A DNA stretch of 64,000 nucleotides from Nanobdellota archaeon. Its GTDB lineage: Archaea; Nanobdellota; Nanobdellia; Parvarchaeales; Parvarchaeaceae. Position 1 is the first letter of the stretch. Every line of letters starts with the position of its first letter. The notes under the pieces were generated by a model that saw only the letters and a list, made by a program, of their open reading frames with translations, was not told where the DNA came from and ran no database searches. Shown in pieces: positions 12,752 through 57,506 of this stretch. The stretch lies in the NCBI GenBank assembly GCA_021807125.1, contig JAKAPK010000001.1:246354-310353 (forward strand). Reading direction: 5' to 3'. A program made the translations under genes and the position numbers.

Positions 12752-12825
12752 GGGGTGGTGATCTAGCTTGGTATGATGCCAGACTCGGGCTCTGGCAGTC
12801 CTGGGTTCAAATCCCAGCCGCCCCA
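12752..12825 (+). tRNA. tRNA-Pro (anticodon CGG)
   Basis: Cloverleaf readable by eye. Acceptor GGGGUGG pairs with CCGCCCC (one U-G) and is followed by discriminator A. The D arm has AUC/GAU; the anticodon stem is CCAGA/UCUGG with loop CUCGGGC, so the anticodon is CGG. The T arm is CUGGG UUCAAAU CCCAG. There is no intron and CCA is not encoded. It lies 26 bp after cbf5 on the same strand. Confidence 0.93.
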
Positions 12826-13050: not shown

Positions 13051-13162
13051 TGGGGTCAGCCGGATTTGAACCGACGTCAAGCGCTTTCACCTTTAATCAT
13101 CCTTGCGTCATTTTTCCAGTCAAGCTGGAGGCGCTTGTTCTACCGGGCTAAACTATGACCCC
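13051..13162 (-). tRNA. tRNA-Trp (anticodon CCA) with 39-nt intron after position 37
   Basis: Read on the minus strand: acceptor GGGGUCA/UGACCCC with discriminator A; D arm GUUU..GAAC; anticodon stem AGCGC/GCGCU; T arm GUCGG UUCAAAU CCGGC. The anticodon loop would be CU-CCA-G-A if 39 nt (13086-13124) are removed between positions 37 and 38, the usual site of archaeal tRNA introns, and tRNA-Trp is the commonest intron carrier in archaea. The 3' splice region GGUG-AA|A can pair with CUCC (loop 32-35) except for one U-U mismatch, giving an imperfect BHB. The gene is 3 bp upstream of the DUF655 stop. Confidence 0.9.
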
Positions 13163-16309: not shown

Positions 16310-16432
16310 AGTCGCTACACTACTATAAAGCAACCTCTCAATTTAAAGATTGATTTACAAAATAGTTTTTCCGGAGAGGTAATGAATAAGTAATATATCT
16401 CTAATACGGGCCGACTTCATTTAGAAGATAAT

Positions 16433-16515
16433 TGCAGAGGGAGGGATTCGAACCCTCGAAGGCCTGAGCCATAAGGTCCTTAGCCTTACGCGTTTGACCG
16501 CTTCGCTACCTCTGC
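16433..16515 (-). tRNA. tRNA-Leu (anticodon AAG)
   Basis: Type II tRNA read on the minus strand. Acceptor GCAGAGG/CCUCUGC with discriminator A; D arm GCG..CGC; anticodon stem UAAGG/CCUUA with loop CUAAGGA; a 14-nt variable arm with GGC-UCAG-GCC stem; T arm GAGGG UUCGAAU CCCUC. Position 34 is A, so the anticodon is AAG (Leu, codon CUU). Archaea normally have GAG here, and A34 tRNAs are very rare in the domain. No intron, no encoded CCA. Confidence 0.9.
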
Positions 16516-16641
16516 ATTAATAAATCTAATCTTATTATTTGTTGCTTATAAAAGATTAGTGGGACTCTCTTAAAAGAGAAAAAGCACATTAAGATCTAAT
16601 TTTAATTTAGAAGCTATATCGCAGAGATGTCTTCTTTGTCA

Positions 16642-36717: not shown

Positions 36718-38784
36718 ATGTTTAATAGAAAATCTCAAAGTCTTTTAGAGTTCATGACAACTTGGGGGTGGGTTATTCTTATCATAGTAATCGTTATAGG
36801 ACTGCTTTTCAGCTTTGGTGTATTTACTAGCCCGACGATAACCGCACCAGTCATTAATGGGTTTTCAGGTGTAACGGTTAGCAATGGCGCTGCCAATAGT
36901 TCTTTGATGGTTCTTCAATTCCATAATGACGAGAACAAACCAGTGTATATAGATAATGTATCCACAAACTTAAATGGTAATGTTTACAGTTCATTCCAGT
37001 GTGCTCAGCAGACTGTCGCTCCGGGCAGTTCTACGTTCTGCAGGGTCAAAATATCAAATGATCAATCATCTTATACCGCGTCTGTCTCTGTAAAATATAA
37101 TATAACTAATCTAAATTTTTATTCATACTCTAACGGTACTATATCAAGTCAGACGGTCTCAAATCTTGAACCGATAAACAATCAAATAACTTACTTCAAT
37201 GAAACCGGGCTCGTGCCTGGCAGCGTATGGAACGTAACATTCGATGGCATAAAAAAGAGCACTACTGGAAACAACATATCATTTGATATACCGTTTGGTG
37301 AATACAACTACAGCGTAGCTGTAGGCAATTTTACCGGTTGCAATAATTCCATAAGCGTAGATTCTGGTACAGCACAAACGGGCTATTCGATAGTTCTACC
37401 ATTCAAGTCTTCATGTAAGATTACTTTCATAGAAAGCGGGCTGCCTACTGGAATAAATTGGACCGTTACTCTCGTTCAACCGGGTTGTATTGTGCTTGGA
37501 AAGATACATTGTCTTGAGAGGGCAACATATGATAAAACAAATTCTTCAAAAGGCACGACGATAACTTTTGTACTTCCGTATGGCTCGTATGCATATCTAG
37601 ATAGTGCGTATGCTAATTCTACATATGATTTCATAGAGAGATATTCCTCTAATAGCACATCCGGCAGCATCGTGGCTGGAATTTCTAAATATCTTTCTTT
37701 CTCGCCTGATAACTCTGTAGTATATGTATATGCCGCAAATCCAAGCATGAACATAGTGTCTGTTATAAACGCCACTTCGAATGCTGTAATAAAGAATATA
37801 ACAGTTGGTACATATCCACAGTACCTTACTTTGTCAACAAATGGGCAGTTCGTATTTGTACAGAATCAAAAGGCAAACACAACTTCTATAATAAATACGA
37901 CTTCAAATACATTACTAAACACGATAAATGACTATGGAACGGGCACATCTGAGAATCATTCAACGGGAGTTACGTACTTCCTGAATGCTTCTGACGGTTA
38001 TCCAAAAGGCACGGTCTTCGTTCCTGGAACGCCCGGCATAGACGATGTAGGCTTGATAAACGCTTCAAACAATGATTTTGTAGGAGAACGCGGTCCTAGT
38101 TCGCCAACGACAGGAGGAGTAATTATCCAACAATGCCTGAACGTAAGCAATCCTCCGACCAATATTAGCTGTGAAGGTTATGTACTATCCCAGTTTGATG
38201 CAGCCTATATCGGTACCGGCTCTTACGTCCCTTTTACAGCAAATGGAAGCGGCATAGCCTTGGAGAGGTGGGGGAGCGAAGCCAATAAGATAGCTTACGT
38301 TTCTCTTCCAAAACAAAACATGGTAGTAGTGCTTAATGTTTCCTCTGCGCCGGGATCAATTTGTTCCGGAGGTCACTGCTACACGCCTAATCTTATAATA
38401 GCCAATATAACATCACCTTCAGGCTCTCCAACGGCATGGTTCAACGGTGTAAACGCCGTACAATTTAATCCAAATGGCAGACTCGCATATGTACTTAATA
38501 CTGGAGGGGCAGGAATAGGAGTATATGTGTCCGTTATAAACGTGACTACAAGCAAGATAATCACAAACGTCACATTAACAACAAATAGCGGCGCACAGGG
38601 CGAAGACCTTGCAGTAACCCCAGACGGAAACTATGCATATATTTCATACTATTCAACAGCTGGCGGTGACCGTATAAGCGTAATAAATTTGAATACTTAT
38701 TCCACTACATTGATAAGCGGTGTTGCAAGCGGTGCGGGAACTTATTTTGGAATAGCTGCCGCCGCACGCGATGAGAGTATTTAA
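36718..38784 (+). CDS. Class III signal-peptide surface protein with ESGLP repeats and YVTN-like beta-propeller
   Basis: 688 aa. Starts MFNRKSQSLLEFMTTWGWVILIIVIVIGLLFSFGVF: a basic leader, a prepilin-peptidase cleavage site before Q-S-L-L-E and a pilin-like hydrophobic helix, so it should be processed and assembled or anchored like an archaeal pilin. Two extracellular repeats follow near residues 160 and 238 (NETGLVPGSVWNVTFDG; ESGLPTGINWTVTL). The C-terminal half has YVTN-type blades (VINATSNAVIKNITVGTYPQYLTLSTNG; LAVTPDGNYAYISYYS). Dozens of N-x-S/T sites suit AglB. One of three related genes in the window (also 40404 and 47426). A hairpin terminator follows. Confidence 0.85.
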   Translation: MFNRKSQSLLEFMTTWGWVILIIVIVIGLLFSFGVFTSPTITAPVINGFSGVTVSNGAANSSLMVLQFHNDENKPVYIDNVSTNLNGNVYSSFQCAQQTVAPGSSTFCRVKISNDQSSYTASVSVKYNITNLNFYSYSNGTISSQTVSNLEPINNQITYFNETGLVPGSVWNVTFDGIKKSTTGNNISFDIPFGEYNYSVAVGNFTGCNNSISVDSGTAQTGYSIVLPFKSSCKITFIESGLPTGINWTVTLVQPGCIVLGKIHCLERATYDKTNSSKGTTITFVLPYGSYAYLDSAYANSTYDFIERYSSNSTSGSIVAGISKYLSFSPDNSVVYVYAANPSMNIVSVINATSNAVIKNITVGTYPQYLTLSTNGQFVFVQNQKANTTSIINTTSNTLLNTINDYGTGTSENHSTGVTYFLNASDGYPKGTVFVPGTPGIDDVGLINASNNDFVGERGPSSPTTGGVIIQQCLNVSNPPTNISCEGYVLSQFDAAYIGTGSYVPFTANGSGIALERWGSEANKIAYVSLPKQNMVVVLNVSSAPGSICSGGHCYTPNLIIANITSPSGSPTAWFNGVNAVQFNPNGRLAYVLNTGGAGIGVYVSVINVTTSKIITNVTLTTNSGAQGEDLAVTPDGNYAYISYYSTAGGDRISVINLNTYSTTLISGVASGAGTYFGIAAAARDESI

Positions 38785-40126: not shown

Positions 40127-40402
40127 ATGTCAGACCGAATAAGATGCGCGCATATCCTTGTTAAGGACAAATTAAAGGCTGATGAGCTATTAAAAAGAAT
40201 AAAAGATGGAGAAAGCTTTTCCAAGATTGCAGAAGAAAATTCAATTGATGGCTCTAGAAGAAGAGGTGGTGATCTTGGCTTTTTTACGCGTGGAGTAATG
40301 GTAAAGGAATTCGAAAAGGCCGCGTTTGCCCTTGATAAGGGCCAGGTATCAGAAGTAATAAAGACACAATTCGGATATCATATAATAAAACGCCTTGAAT
40401 GA
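40127..40402 (+). CDS. Parvulin-type peptidyl-prolyl cis-trans isomerase
   Basis: 91 aa from MSDRIRCAHILVKD; the track's upstream start adds 12 unlikely residues. One rotamase domain with the classical elements: RCAHILV, FSKIAEENSIDGSRRRGGDLGFFTRGVMVKEFEKAAFALDKGQVSEVIKTQFGYHIIKRLE. Single-domain parvulins of this size occur in bacteria and some archaea and speed prolyl isomerisation in protein folding. No signal peptide, so cytoplasmic. Ends 1 bp before the start of the next surface-protein gene. Confidence 0.92.
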   Translation: MSDRIRCAHILVKDKLKADELLKRIKDGESFSKIAEENSIDGSRRRGGDLGFFTRGVMVKEFEKAAFALDKGQVSEVIKTQFGYHIIKRLE

Positions 40403-40403
40403 A

Positions 40404-41465
40404 ATGGCAATAAAAACTGCTCCGGGCAAAAGAAAGAATAATGATGTAAAAATCATACATTCCAGAAAATTACAATCGGCTCTAGAATATCTGATGACAT
40501 ACGGATGGGTGATACTATTCATCGTTATAGCAATGACTATCCTTTATGAATTTGGCATATTCAATCCGTCTTCCGTGATAACTTCTACTCCCATAATCAC
40601 CGGTTTTAATGGTTTATCTATAGTATCACCAGCCGCAAATCAAACGATGTTAAAGTTCTCATTGATGGATAACATTGGACTTCCAATAGAATTGACAGCG
40701 ATAAATTTTACCCAGGGTTCAGCTCATTATTCGAAGGTAAGCTGCCAAAGCAATTACCTACAAGCTGGCGGACTAACAACGTGCTATTTCAACGCTACTT
40801 TTCCAAGTACTGTCTTCGTTTCTATGAGTATTTCATATTTGGAGCTTACGGGTTTTTCATCCAATCCGGAACTTGAAAGCGGTTCTATTCTTATGCAAAG
40901 AACAAACGGGTTTGTTTTACCCCCCGCAAACTCGCCTCAACAGACGAATTTTATAGAAAGCGGGTTGCCGAACAATGCGTCGTGGAGTATATTAGTAAAC
41001 AACAGCTTTTACACATCAAAAGGGGGCTTTCTTAGAATAAGTCTTCCGCCCGGCAATTTTAGTTCTATTTTAGAACCGGTGTACATGTCGCCGCCATCAT
41101 CGGGCTGTAAATCGAACAGCGTTTATTACGTTCCGACTATAAATATAAGCCGAATAGATTCTGGTTCTTCTTATTCCTTCTCATATACCAAAAGAACAGG
41201 CACCGTGTGCACTACTACTGTTTCGGAAACAGGTCTCCCACTCGGATACAAATGGTATTCTTTGTATGGATTCGATTTCAATTATACGACCACGAACAGG
41301 TTAGAATTCACTACTTTATCTAGCAAGTGGCTCTATTTTGGCTTACCGATATTTATGCAGTTAAACAGTAGTTGCTCCAGAACTTATACGGAGAGCCCTC
41401 TGCTGTCCTTCTTAAGCGCAGGAAATTCAAAAGCTATAGTCTTTTTGAATAGCACTGTTTGTTAA
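40404..41465 (+). CDS. Class III signal-peptide surface protein with two ESGLP-type repeats
   Basis: About 353 aa from the ATG at 40404; the track's TTG start is 9 nt earlier. A 27-residue basic leader (ending HSRK) precedes LQSALEYLMTYGWVILFIVIAMTILYEFGIFNPS, the prepilin-type segment. A globular part follows, then FIESGLPNNASWSILVNNS (near residue 185) and VSETGLPLGYKWYSLYG (near 275), each starting a small beta domain with cysteines. The first ~130 residues align well with the proteins at 36718 and 47426, so the three share an N-terminal module and differ in repeat number and C-terminal domain. Confidence 0.85.
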   Translation: MAIKTAPGKRKNNDVKIIHSRKLQSALEYLMTYGWVILFIVIAMTILYEFGIFNPSSVITSTPIITGFNGLSIVSPAANQTMLKFSLMDNIGLPIELTAINFTQGSAHYSKVSCQSNYLQAGGLTTCYFNATFPSTVFVSMSISYLELTGFSSNPELESGSILMQRTNGFVLPPANSPQQTNFIESGLPNNASWSILVNNSFYTSKGGFLRISLPPGNFSSILEPVYMSPPSSGCKSNSVYYVPTINISRIDSGSSYSFSYTKRTGTVCTTTVSETGLPLGYKWYSLYGFDFNYTTTNRLEFTTLSSKWLYFGLPIFMQLNSSCSRTYTESPLLSFLSAGNSKAIVFLNSTVC

Positions 41466-47425: not shown

Positions 47426-50400
47426 ATGCCTAAATCACAATCTGCCTTAGAATATATGATGACTTATGGCTGGGCAATCCTGATAATAGTCCTTATAGCG
47501 GCGATACTTTTCTCCTTTGGTATATTCAATCCTTCGACCAGCGTTACAAACGCCCCTCTGATAACAGGTTTCTCCGATATTCCAGTAACTACAGCGGTGG
47601 CTAATAATAGCTTCTTCAAGATAACTCTGTCAAACCAGTATGGGCAGACAGTAAGGCTAAACAACGCAACTATGCTCTTTGGAAGCACAACGTTCACGAA
47701 AAACAACTGCACGAACATCGTGTTAACAGCTGGACAGTACGCAAGCTGCTACGTTGAAGGAACTTTCTCAGGAAGCACGATATCCGTAGTTGGGACGATA
47801 TTTTATACCATAATCGACAGCAATTTTAACACGTCTACGACAGGAACTATAAGGGTTCAGAATAGCGGCGAGCCGTTATACCCTGCAAGTGTAGCGATGT
47901 GTTCTCTTAGTTATTTACTTAATAAGACAAGTGATAATAAATCTGGAGTTAATTTAGACAATGTAAGCTGGAAGATAGCCAATGCCGGTGAATTTGCTGT
48001 AGTAATGGCTGCCAGTGGCGCTAAATTGTTCGGTGGAAGTTTTAAGATTCCTTCTGGTTGCTATTTCGCAGAACAGAAATCTGACTCATCGAATTCAAGT
48101 ATAGTCATCTGTCCTAATCAATCTCCTGGCAGTTACAGTGTGAATGTCACGAATAACGGTGATTCTGTAGCTTTAGCTGCTTACATATTCCATGGGCCTA
48201 TGTGTTACTATTCTATCAACGGCACGACAGGAGGAACTATACTAAAGTCCTCTTTGCCAGCTGGCGCCAGCCTCTATCTATGTGATGCAGCTTCAAATAC
48301 TGCCTCTGATTTTCTTAATTCTTCTGTGACGGATGTGAACGCTACAAACGCTGAAATAGGCCATCAAACGGGCAATATCTGCTATGGTATAGACCCGACT
48401 ATGCCGGTATTCGGACAAAGCTTATCGTTTATAAGTCTGAATAGTAGTTTCGCTAACGTCACGACATTCTCCGAAACCGGACTGCCTTCAAATATCAAGT
48501 GGAATGTTACTTATGACGGAACACTAAAGGGTACTAAATCGCCGGCGAATATAATATTTGTTACATTACCAGGTAACTATTCATATTCTGCAACAGCTCT
48601 GAGCAACTCTTCATCAAATTGCACCTCTGTATATACTCCTTCAGCGGCTTCAGGATATGATGTCTCTGGCACGCCAAAAAGTATAATATTTTCTACTTCC
48701 ACATCTTGCTCTACGACTTTCAGCGAGAGCGGGCTGCCCAGTGGCTCTCTGTGGAACGTTACCTATAGTTCTGTATATAATGCTTCTACCGCAGTAAACG
48801 TAACCGCAACTACTACCGTAGGTATACACAGCTTTGCGCTATACCGACAGGATGTGAACGGCTGTGTATATATACCGCTCAATTCTTCCTCACTTCAGCC
48901 CATGTTCAGCGGAAATCTGAAGGCTGGTGCTTTCCAAAAAGTGAAGTATAACCTTACTTACTGTCTTACGACCTTTGACGAATCCGGTCTTCCTTTAAGT
49001 ACTATCTGGAATGTGACATTCAATGGGACATTACAGCAGTCAACGTCAACTAAAATAATATTCAATACTACTAATAGATCACTTCCCTTTTTGACTCATA
49101 TCGCATACAGTGGCGGAACACCATACTGTCAGGCGCCGGTTTCAGGAAACTTATTTGCTGGGTCTATTATTACAGTTACTTATTCGTCTACGTGTATCAC
49201 GACTACTTTCACTGAAACAGGTTTGAAATCAGGTAAAATCTGGTCGGCGGTCTACGATAACGAATCAAATACTTCTTCTGATAGCGTTATAACGCTAAGA
49301 TCGATACCTGGAACTTTTGCATTCACGATACCAGCCCAATTTAATTCTTCTTCTGTTTGTGAGATGGCTTTACTTTCTTCAAACAGCTCCGGCAGACTGG
49401 TAGCAGGTTCCACAAAATCAGAAACATTCAATGAAACTTGTGCTATATATTCCAATGAACATATAATTGCGGGACAAAAGATAGTCTATAACTGGTCTAG
49501 TTCGGTTGTACCGGACTTGTATTATCCAACGAATGGCATTATGTATACTGAACACCCTATAAACAGCAGCTGGCGTGAGTGGTACGAAGTAAATGGCACT
49601 TATATACAATATATATCATCACCATTTAAACCCCCTGCTGAGTTTATTAGAACTTGCCCATCCGAGTGTCCGGCTGCGGGAGTAATCGGCACGGAAGGTT
49701 ACTTCTTTGACAGTAATACTGGCTATATCTACTCATCAAAGGGAGAGATATTCAATGGAAGCAGCACGTCGTTTCTAGGTTTTGATAACGGTTTTGGCCT
49801 GACAAAAATCCCGTATGATTTCAGCGTAATAAACAATTCGGGATATGTCTACTTACCGAACCCGAATGGACAAATATCCTTGATAAATAAAAAAACCCTG
49901 TTAACAAATATAACGGTAGGCAACTTCTCCAGGCTTTCTACTCCTTATTATGGCAATGGCGATCAATATGCTGGTGAACAAACAGGTTTGACTATGGATA
50001 ATGTTAATAACTATACCTATGTTATTGCCTTTCCTTTAAACAGGACGCTGGTGATTAGTGGTACTTCGGTAATCGCAAATCTGTCGATGATAAGGCCTTT
50101 GTATGACATAGTCGATACATTCCATAATTATGTATATGTAATAGATGGATTAAATGGAACCAATATAGACATATTAAGCGGTACAAGTGTCATCGGGAGC
50201 TTAACTGTAGACAAAACATTGGATGTTTGTTCACCTCCTTTCTCCGCTACTAAGAGTAGCTGTATGTATTCAGCATCAAATCCAATTTATAACCCTGGCA
50301 ATCACTTATTATATGTTGCCACTGAGGGAGGCTATACAAATATAATAAACGGCACGTTACTTGTAGGGAACGTATCCTCTCTAAACCCAAAAAATACAAC

Positions 50401-50731
50401 TATAACCGGTTTAGGATATGATGCAGCCAAAAGTTACGTTTACGTCGGAAGCAGGGGTTATAATTCCAATTCTAGTGGGACTTACTATCACGACTATATC
50501 ACAGTGATAAATGGCACCAAGGGAATAGCAAATATAACTGTAACCACGGGCGCAAAAGGCAGTGGAATACAAGCTCTTGGTCAACAGATATACGATCCCT
50601 CGAATGGGTTCATGTACATTGGTGACCCGCAGGATAACCAAACGATAATAATGAATCAAACGACGATAGTAGAACGACTCCCGTTAACACTGAGCGGTGC
50701 CACTCTTGTTGGCAAATACTACGAAGTATAA
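47426..50731 (+). CDS. Large class III signal-peptide surface protein with four ESGLP repeats and propeller-like C-terminus
   Basis: 1101 aa. Begins MPKSQSALEYMMTYGWAILIIVLIAAILFSFGIFNPS (prepilin-type; cleavage before Q-S-A-L-E). Residues ~40-345 form Cys-containing, N-glycosylation-rich beta domains. Four repeats follow near residues 349, 434, 518 and 595 (SETGLPSNIKWNVTYDG, SESGLPSGSLWNVTYSS, DESGLPLSTIWNVTFNG, TETGLKSGKIWSAVYDN), ~80 residues apart. The last ~400 residues hold propeller-like strands (FSVINNSGYVYLPNPNGQISLIN; LLYVATEGGYTNIINGT; YVYVGSRGYN). Together with 36718 and 40404 it makes up a modular surface-protein family, likely glycosylated by AglB. Confidence 0.85.
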   Translation: MPKSQSALEYMMTYGWAILIIVLIAAILFSFGIFNPSTSVTNAPLITGFSDIPVTTAVANNSFFKITLSNQYGQTVRLNNATMLFGSTTFTKNNCTNIVLTAGQYASCYVEGTFSGSTISVVGTIFYTIIDSNFNTSTTGTIRVQNSGEPLYPASVAMCSLSYLLNKTSDNKSGVNLDNVSWKIANAGEFAVVMAASGAKLFGGSFKIPSGCYFAEQKSDSSNSSIVICPNQSPGSYSVNVTNNGDSVALAAYIFHGPMCYYSINGTTGGTILKSSLPAGASLYLCDAASNTASDFLNSSVTDVNATNAEIGHQTGNICYGIDPTMPVFGQSLSFISLNSSFANVTTFSETGLPSNIKWNVTYDGTLKGTKSPANIIFVTLPGNYSYSATALSNSSSNCTSVYTPSAASGYDVSGTPKSIIFSTSTSCSTTFSESGLPSGSLWNVTYSSVYNASTAVNVTATTTVGIHSFALYRQDVNGCVYIPLNSSSLQPMFSGNLKAGAFQKVKYNLTYCLTTFDESGLPLSTIWNVTFNGTLQQSTSTKIIFNTTNRSLPFLTHIAYSGGTPYCQAPVSGNLFAGSIITVTYSSTCITTTFTETGLKSGKIWSAVYDNESNTSSDSVITLRSIPGTFAFTIPAQFNSSSVCEMALLSSNSSGRLVAGSTKSETFNETCAIYSNEHIIAGQKIVYNWSSSVVPDLYYPTNGIMYTEHPINSSWREWYEVNGTYIQYISSPFKPPAEFIRTCPSECPAAGVIGTEGYFFDSNTGYIYSSKGEIFNGSSTSFLGFDNGFGLTKIPYDFSVINNSGYVYLPNPNGQISLINKKTLLTNITVGNFSRLSTPYYGNGDQYAGEQTGLTMDNVNNYTYVIAFPLNRTLVISGTSVIANLSMIRPLYDIVDTFHNYVYVIDGLNGTNIDILSGTSVIGSLTVDKTLDVCSPPFSATKSSCMYSASNPIYNPGNHLLYVATEGGYTNIINGTLLVGNVSSLNPKNTTITGLGYDAAKSYVYVGSRGYNSNSSGTYYHDYITVINGTKGIANITVTTGAKGSGIQALGQQIYDPSNGFMYIGDPQDNQTIIMNQTTIVERLPLTLSGATLVGKYYEV

Positions 50732-54638: not shown

Positions 54639-55097
54639 CTATACTTCTTTATGAGGACATTCTTCAAATGCTTTTTTGCACGCCTTACAATTGTCCTGAT
54701 TGCGATTATGTAAAGTTTCTCTTATTACCCTTGCTTTAGTAGGGGCGAATAAAAGATACTCAACGTAGTGTTTTACGCCGTCGTACCCACGACTTTTAGC
54801 TAAACTATTAAGAACATCGTCTCCTTTCATGTCTGCAGCAGCGAGTTCTGGGTCTTTTTCTTCTAACAAATCCAGAATTTTCACGCGTCTTAAACGTATT
54901 GTGTAAGTTACAGGTAAACTATGACGATTACGACGTTCTTCGGCGTGCGTATGAGCATATAGCCCGGCTTCATGCTTGCAATCGGTAAGATAAAGCCCAT
55001 AGCCAAACCTGCCATTGCTTTCGTGCAACACATCCATCAGACTCGAAACACCCCTGTAAAGCGTAAGGTCTTTGATTTTTCCCATAGTTTTGATCAT
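54639..55097 (-). CDS. Putative ADP-ribosyltransferase-like protein with C-terminal Cys cluster (paralogue A)
   Basis: 152 aa. The layout LTLYRGVS (strand with Arg), GRFGYGLYLTDCKHEAGLYAHTHAE (G-x-Y-L-T plus A..YA), and late GYDGVKHYVEYLLFAPTKARVIRE resembles ADP-ribosyltransferase toxins and PARP-like folds, where the last strand carries the catalytic Glu (here E in VEYLLF). A C-terminal CKACKKAFEECPH may bind zinc. 36% or so of positions look shared with the protein at 57054. Start uncertain: MIKTMGKIKD; the second ATG four codons later is possible, since the nucleotides TTAATGATCAAAACTATG also precede the next upstream gene. Assignment by pattern only. Confidence 0.55.
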   Translation of the reverse strand: MIKTMGKIKDLTLYRGVSSLMDVLHESNGRFGYGLYLTDCKHEAGLYAHTHAEERRNRHSLPVTYTIRLRRVKILDLLEEKDPELAAADMKGDDVLNSLAKSRGYDGVKHYVEYLLFAPTKARVIRETLHNRNQDNCKACKKAFEECPHKEV

Positions 55098-57053: not shown

Positions 57054-57506
57054 TCATGAACTATTCCCCGAAAAGCGCCTGCAGGTATCAGAAAACCCCT
57101 CTGGGTCCTCGCACACGGCACATCTGTATCCCTTACCATGGACCTGTCTTTCCACTATCCTGGCGTTATCCGTATCGAAAAGAAGATAAGTAGTGCCGAA
57201 ACGGTTTTCGCCCTTGACCACGTTGCAGTCTTTTGATCTTGCCAATTTCTCATAATCATTGTCTTCCACGGACTCATGCAAGCTATCGAGATCCAGTACT
57301 CTTGCATTCTCTATTCTTATCGTATAAGTAACAGGAGACTCTTTATTTCTCATAGAATGCCCGTGCGCGTAAATGTCCGCTTCATGCTTGAAATTAGTTA
57401 GATAGAGCCCTCTGTTCCAGCAGCCGTTCGTCTTTTTTAAGGCGCTCTCCAATCTGGAAACTCCCCTATAAAGCGTGATTTCTTTTTTCTCGATACTTTC
57501 ACCCAT
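57054..57506 (-). CDS. Putative ADP-ribosyltransferase-like protein (paralogue B)
   Basis: 150 aa. Aligns over its length with 54639: ITLYRGVSRLESALKKTNGCWNRGLYLTNFKHEADIYAHGHS vs LTLYRGVSSLMDVLHESNGRFGYGLYLTDCKHEAGLYAHTHA, then SPVTYTIRIENARVLDLD and TTYLLFDTDNARIVERQ. The Glu expected on the last strand (VEYLLF in paralogue A) is Thr here (TTYLLF), so it may be inactive or use another residue. The Cys cluster CAVCEDPEGFSDTC is kept. First gene of the minus-strand run 57506-54639; preceded by a 428-bp AT-rich gap with a palindrome. Confidence 0.55.
   Translation of the reverse strand: MGESIEKKEITLYRGVSRLESALKKTNGCWNRGLYLTNFKHEADIYAHGHSMRNKESPVTYTIRIENARVLDLDSLHESVEDNDYEKLARSKDCNVVKGENRFGTTYLLFDTDNARIVERQVHGKGYRCAVCEDPEGFSDTCRRFSGNSS

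Follow-up and report, generated by a model that had tools for sequence, protein, structure and literature searches.

tRNA-Leu(AAG) in place of tRNA-Leu(GAG) in a class of DPANN archaea

The window (the whole 64,000-nucleotide stretch of DNA analysed), from the genome of a small DPANN archaeon, probably of acid-mine origin (G000; 653 kb assembly, 78.6% complete), contained a tRNA-Leu gene with the anticodon AAG, a trait found in 17 families of one archaeal class, where tRNA-Leu(AAG) replaces tRNA-Leu(GAG) and is not an extra copy. On balance, the data favour the reading that in a large part of this class CUU and CUC, and in some genera CCU and CCC, would be read by an unmodified A34, following an in-place switch from G34 to A34 without a deaminase. 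The interpretation given in the initial annotation of the window was partly supported; the spread over 17 families, the genomic slot common with tRNA-Leu(GAG) and the presence of a tRNA-Pro(AGG) in the same genus go beyond it.

The gene had the features of an archaeal type II tRNA-Leu, i.e. a cloverleaf, a long variable arm, A73 and an NAG anticodon (ARAGORN and Rfam). It matched Rfam RF00005 with 60.8 bits (E 1.1e-10; model positions 1-71; all pairs intact), and the covariance model placed its bounds at 16433-16515. Its anticodon loop (C32 U33 A34 A35 G36 G37 A38) was closed by the stem UAAGG/CCUUA, and the discriminator base was A73. An archaeal tRNA-Leu with A34, carrying the loop CUAAGGA in an otherwise perfect type II molecule, had been described for positions 16470-16500, which correspond to the anticodon arm region; both statements were borne out by the ARAGORN call, the Rfam score, the conservation in the genus and a cloverleaf without any broken pair. 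The leucine tRNAs detected in the window genome were UAG, AAG, UAA and CAA, the last two with an intron. The only differences between the AAG gene and the UAG gene of the same genome (L012) were position 34 and three positions of the T arm; C32 and A38 were the same in both. Stretches comparable to TTTTATAAG (Table 1) were also seen by eye upstream in several relatives, and tRNA-Pro(CGG) was found near tRNA-Leu(AAG) in many relatives (L110, L121, L131, L135, L142).

Table 1. Coordinates of the tRNA-Leu(AAG) gene, its elements and other features observed in the window.
Feature	Position	Strand	Basis
tRNA-Leu(AAG) gene, type II, without intron and without encoded CCA	16432..16516	-	ARAGORN; Rfam RF00005
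Anticodon A34-A35-G36 (A34 at 16481)	16479..16481	-	Sequence; kept in 26/27 genus genomes
Anticodon arm UAAGG-CUAAGGA-CCUUA	16472..16488	-	Sequence, Rfam
TTTTATAAG, a probable archaeal TATA box ~35 nt ahead of the tRNA-Leu(AAG) 5' end	16544..16556	-	By eye
tRNA-Pro(CGG)	12752..12825	+	ARAGORN
tRNA-Trp(CCA) with an anticodon-loop intron of ~40 nt	13051..13162	-	Found by Rfam, missed by ARAGORN
Paralogous pair of small proteins with TLYRG...GLYLT motifs, resembling an ADP-ribosyltransferase-like fold	54639..55097; 57054..57506	-	Fold by eye
Large proteins that look secreted, each with repeated F-ESGLP motifs after pilin-like N-terminal segments	36718..38784; 40395..41465; 47426..50731	+	

The distribution of the gene within the genus was surveyed in 27 genomes (G000-G026), using a pattern tolerant of any base at position 34. 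The AAG anticodon arm with A34 was present in 26 of them and was accompanied by UAG in most of the 27, the fragmentary G026 having UAG alone, while neither GAG nor CAG was found in the pattern context. The A34 arm was also present in all four genomes of two sister genera. With the gene retained throughout the genus, the base error named in the initial annotation as a possible refutation fails, and the tRNA-Leu(AAG) of the window is not a base error. The 100% complete genome G016 had 41 detected tRNAs, including the leucine tRNAs AAG, UAG, CAG, UAA and CAA; GAG was not among the 41, an absence that is strong but not absolute, as a few expected tRNAs were missed too.

At the level of the DPANN class (280 genomes), tRNA-Leu(AAG) was verified by ARAGORN and stem pairing in 34 genomes from 16 families besides that of the window, and tRNA-Leu(GAG) was found in roughly 55 genomes (24 of them ARAGORN-checked), with strict patterns that left many of the 280 in neither list. 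No genome among the 280 was found with both genes, and no G34 counterpart was found in the AAG genomes, where A34 is encoded. Three families (f5, f28 and f3) held both states, indicating that the switch was either repeated or reversed. When a single stringent pattern was run against 84,980 species genomes, it matched 72 records, almost all of them titled as DPANN. Although the window genome is incomplete (78.6%), an artefact (base error, pseudogene, or redundancy with a tRNA-Leu(GAG) missing from the assembly) is hardly credible in view of the perfect cloverleaf, the retention of the gene in 26/27 genus genomes and 34 verified genomes of 16 further families, and the lack of any genome found with both AAG and GAG; for the clade it is already refuted.

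Several candidates were dropped during verification: G091, G107 and G099 as AAG (CTAAGG outside the anticodon loop), G210 as GAG (actually CAA with an intron), G246 as GAG by ARAGORN (actually a tRNA-Gln with a D-loop intron) and G228 (no clean verification). Four tRNA-Leu(AAG) genes showed apparent D-arm or T-arm introns (L129, L143, L145, L279). One record titled Patescibacteria KA32 (L137) had tRNA-Leu(AAG) beside archaeal RpoD and ribosomal genes, and comes from a mislabelled or mixed MAG.

Outside the family of the window (f1), most loci with sufficient flanking sequence had the AAG gene between rpoD and eL18, in the order uS11-rpoD-tRNA-Leu-eL18-uL13-uS9. The same slot was filled by tRNA-Leu(GAG), directly in G034, G192, G097 and G170 and by coordinates in G146, G108, G168, G184 and G159, and a UAG tRNA lay at or near it in family f13. 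In the genus of the window, the AAG gene was away from the ribosomal slot, near tRNA-Pro(CGG). The occupation of one slot by both genes is most simply explained by orthology, i.e. one gene with a switched anticodon, and accounts for their mutual exclusivity. A second, redundant GAG gene, which the initial annotation had considered as another possible refutation, was equally unsuccessful, since both genes occupy one slot and none of the genomes was found to carry the two together.

The AAG genes had A38 (and C32) in common with the UAG genes, whereas the GAG genes mostly had U32 and lacked A at position 38; in this comparison C32 was partly forced by the search patterns, but A38 was not. Concerning the relation between AAG and UAG, the similarity of the 3' halves (mean of 3.5 versus 9.3 differences; p = 5e-5) hinted at an extra UAG duplicate at a new place, an origin that the synteny with the GAG slot outside f1 speaks against. 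The UAG-like A38 and C32 make conversion by the UAG gene during the switch plausible, and an in-place switch, perhaps with such a conversion, fits better than a duplicate elsewhere.

A34 was not restricted to leucine, as tRNA-Pro(AGG) was found in 15 genus genomes other than that of the window, among them G177 from the same species, as well as in G077, G235 and G194. These tRNA-Pro(AGG) loci (L377-L392 and L374-L376) belong to the genus and to families f29 and f48. An intron-bearing tRNA-Pro(AGG) candidate in G023 had no ARAGORN call. Concerning isoleucine, two genomes (G016, L315; G148, L351) had an intron-bearing tRNA with the apparent anticodon UAU, and the agmatidine route may be missing there; a UAU tRNA has been reported in only two archaeal genomes, Nanoarchaeum and Korarchaeum (PMC6000648).

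The main rival reading is that A34 is converted to inosine (I34) by a divergent or unrelated archaeal deaminase, the tRNA then working like the tRNA-Leu(IAG) of Streptococcus. Nearly all natural A34 tRNAs are I34, AAG and GAG exclude each other as in Lactobacillales (PMC13249217), CUC is heavily used in some AAG genomes (G011, G205), and a few AAG genomes encode TadA-like proteins. The deaminase content of the genomes argues against it, and I34 is considered possible but unlikely. No TadA/ADAT-family deaminase was found in the window genome (78.6% complete), in line with the initial annotation; its only zinc deaminase (PF00383) was closest to dCMP deaminase/ComEB, with 118.7 bits (below the model cut-off) versus 21.7 bits for TadA. 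Several single-contig or near-complete AAG genomes were without any zinc deaminase, PF00383 having no match in the single-contig G148 and G093 or in G016, G004, G056 and G062 (95-100% complete). Overall, a zinc deaminase of any kind was found in 20/36 AAG genomes and about 27/39 GAG genomes, and is thus not enriched in the former. Judging from protein sequence, a TadA-like protein is present in some AAG lineages, as in G058, whose protein scored 99.6 bits against the TadA model (cut-off 150), but is no general partner of AAG; PF14437, which is not TadA-specific, was never used alone as a TadA test. The arginine box, the usual target of TadA, retains GCG.

Codon usage was analysed on coding frames defined as long open frames rather than by annotation. 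Among 16 species of the genus, which share ancestry and are not phylogenetically independent, C-ending codons of the leucine box had a delta-logit of -0.93 relative to six reference boxes, compared to -0.11 in GAG genomes (p = 1e-4), and leucine had the lowest C-ending share among 8 boxes in 12 of the 16. The comparison of CUU with CUC that the initial annotation had proposed as a check showed CUC to be depleted in frame relative to CUU in the genus, the CTC share being 0.218 in frame versus 0.374 out of frame, with depletion in frame only; in the window genome, 329 CUC and 1076 CUU were counted in ~40k codons, CUC thus remaining in considerable use. In the proline box of the genus, the depletion of CCC was no greater than in GAG genomes. 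AAG families outside the genus showed a weak CUC depletion (-0.27 versus -0.11; rank test p = 0.08). The first codon test, on mixed families, was non-significant (p = 0.12-0.15), and the later, significant genus-level test addressed that question a second time. In G011 (L411, L428-L430), where AAG and UAG were the only CUN tRNAs detected, CUC exceeded CUU in three of four stretches, indicating that CUC is read efficiently there.

In vivo values for A34 tRNAs in E. coli, on U- and C-ending codons respectively, are 12.9 and 10.3% for AGG and 4.3 and 1.5% for AAG; AAG thus has a roughly threefold preference for U over C and shows signs of being partly modified to inosine there, while AGG hardly discriminates (PMC11066159). 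By analogy, the leucine and proline codon pattern of the genus matches these data and is opposite to that of the bacterial I34 tRNA-Leu, since CUC falls in the genus, whereas the I34 of Lactobacillales raises both CUU and CUC. Given the common ancestry of the species, the exception of G011 and the weak trend elsewhere, the codon data support, but do not prove, an unmodified A34. The initial annotation had raised an unmodified A34 as a possibility and was right to do so.

Alternatively, A34 would be limited to CUU, and tRNA-Leu(UAG) would cover CUC by superwobbling, its U34 being weakly modified; superwobbling by U34 is discussed in PMC8879553. The presence of UAG beside AAG in most genomes and the depletion of CUC in the genus are consistent with this, but the retention of a CAG tRNA in G016 speaks against UAG reading all of the box, and this reading is quite improbable. 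Decoding by A34 of both codons is preferred: unmodified A34 probably serves CUU well and CUC adequately, leaving the remaining codons to UAG and CAG. The wobble base of the CUU/CUC leucine tRNA has changed from G34 to A34 in much of the DPANN class and, in the proposed mechanism, would be left undeaminated. A34 would form a Watson-Crick pair with CUU and a weaker A-C wobble with CUC, tolerated since CUN is a strong codon box, while CUA and CUG would be read by UAG and CAG. For proline in the genus, the strong G-C pairs of AGG would allow A34 to read CCU about as well as CCC. The C32 and A38 common to UAG may have been copied from the UAG gene during the switch, by gene conversion or duplication.

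A34 (ANN) tRNAs have been described in recent reviews and experimental papers as absent or nearly so in archaea, and this absence has been used in arguments on how the code and inosine originated (PMC8007984, PMC11066159, PMC8879553). Archaeal A34 does have a precedent, which the initial annotation did not foresee: a tRNA-Leu-AAG is listed for Ferroplasma acidarmanus fer1 (PMC6000648). There too, an archaeon has AAG and lacks GAG, and the gene was put down to a G34-to-A34 substitution, but it was reported as a species-specific singleton closest to the GAG tRNAs of other archaea (PMC6000648). By contrast, the DPANN gene is fixed across a genus, extends over 17 families, has the UAG-like C32 and A38 and is joined by a second A34 tRNA (Pro). 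The bacterial parallel is the tRNA-Leu(AAG/IAG) of Lactobacillales (Streptococcus, Lactobacillus), in which AAG likewise replaces GAG, is exclusive between families, and is accompanied by a retained UAG and a shifted leucine codon use (PMC13249217). In that order, I34 is made by the TadA that already serves tRNA-Arg, and the use of CUU and CUC rises (PMC13249217), whereas in DPANN TadA was not found, arginine retains GCG and CUC falls in the genus. Unmodified A34 without a dedicated deaminase is known from Mycoplasma tRNA-Thr AGU, yeast mitochondria and a mutant Salmonella tRNA-Pro, according to the passages of PMC11066159 that cite them. Mycoplasma and yeast mitochondria share small or reduced genomes with DPANN and have abbreviated tRNA sets, whereas the DPANN organisms are archaea whose leucine set is otherwise complete. 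Prior art consists of one archaeal singleton and the Lactobacillales parallel; the literature searched, which covered neither preprints nor most subscription journals, had no mention of a clade-wide archaeal switch, a common slot or a second A34 tRNA.

The no-A34 rule is broken for leucine by at least 17 families within a single archaeal class, and for proline as well by a whole genus. The relatives that keep G34 at the same slot provide a natural experiment on wobble A in translation. If A34 is unmodified, these archaea would offer a rare opportunity to test decoding by A34 in nature and across full genomes, and a decoding strategy not described as an archaeal clade trait; if it is inosine, archaea would hold an as yet undescribed deaminase.
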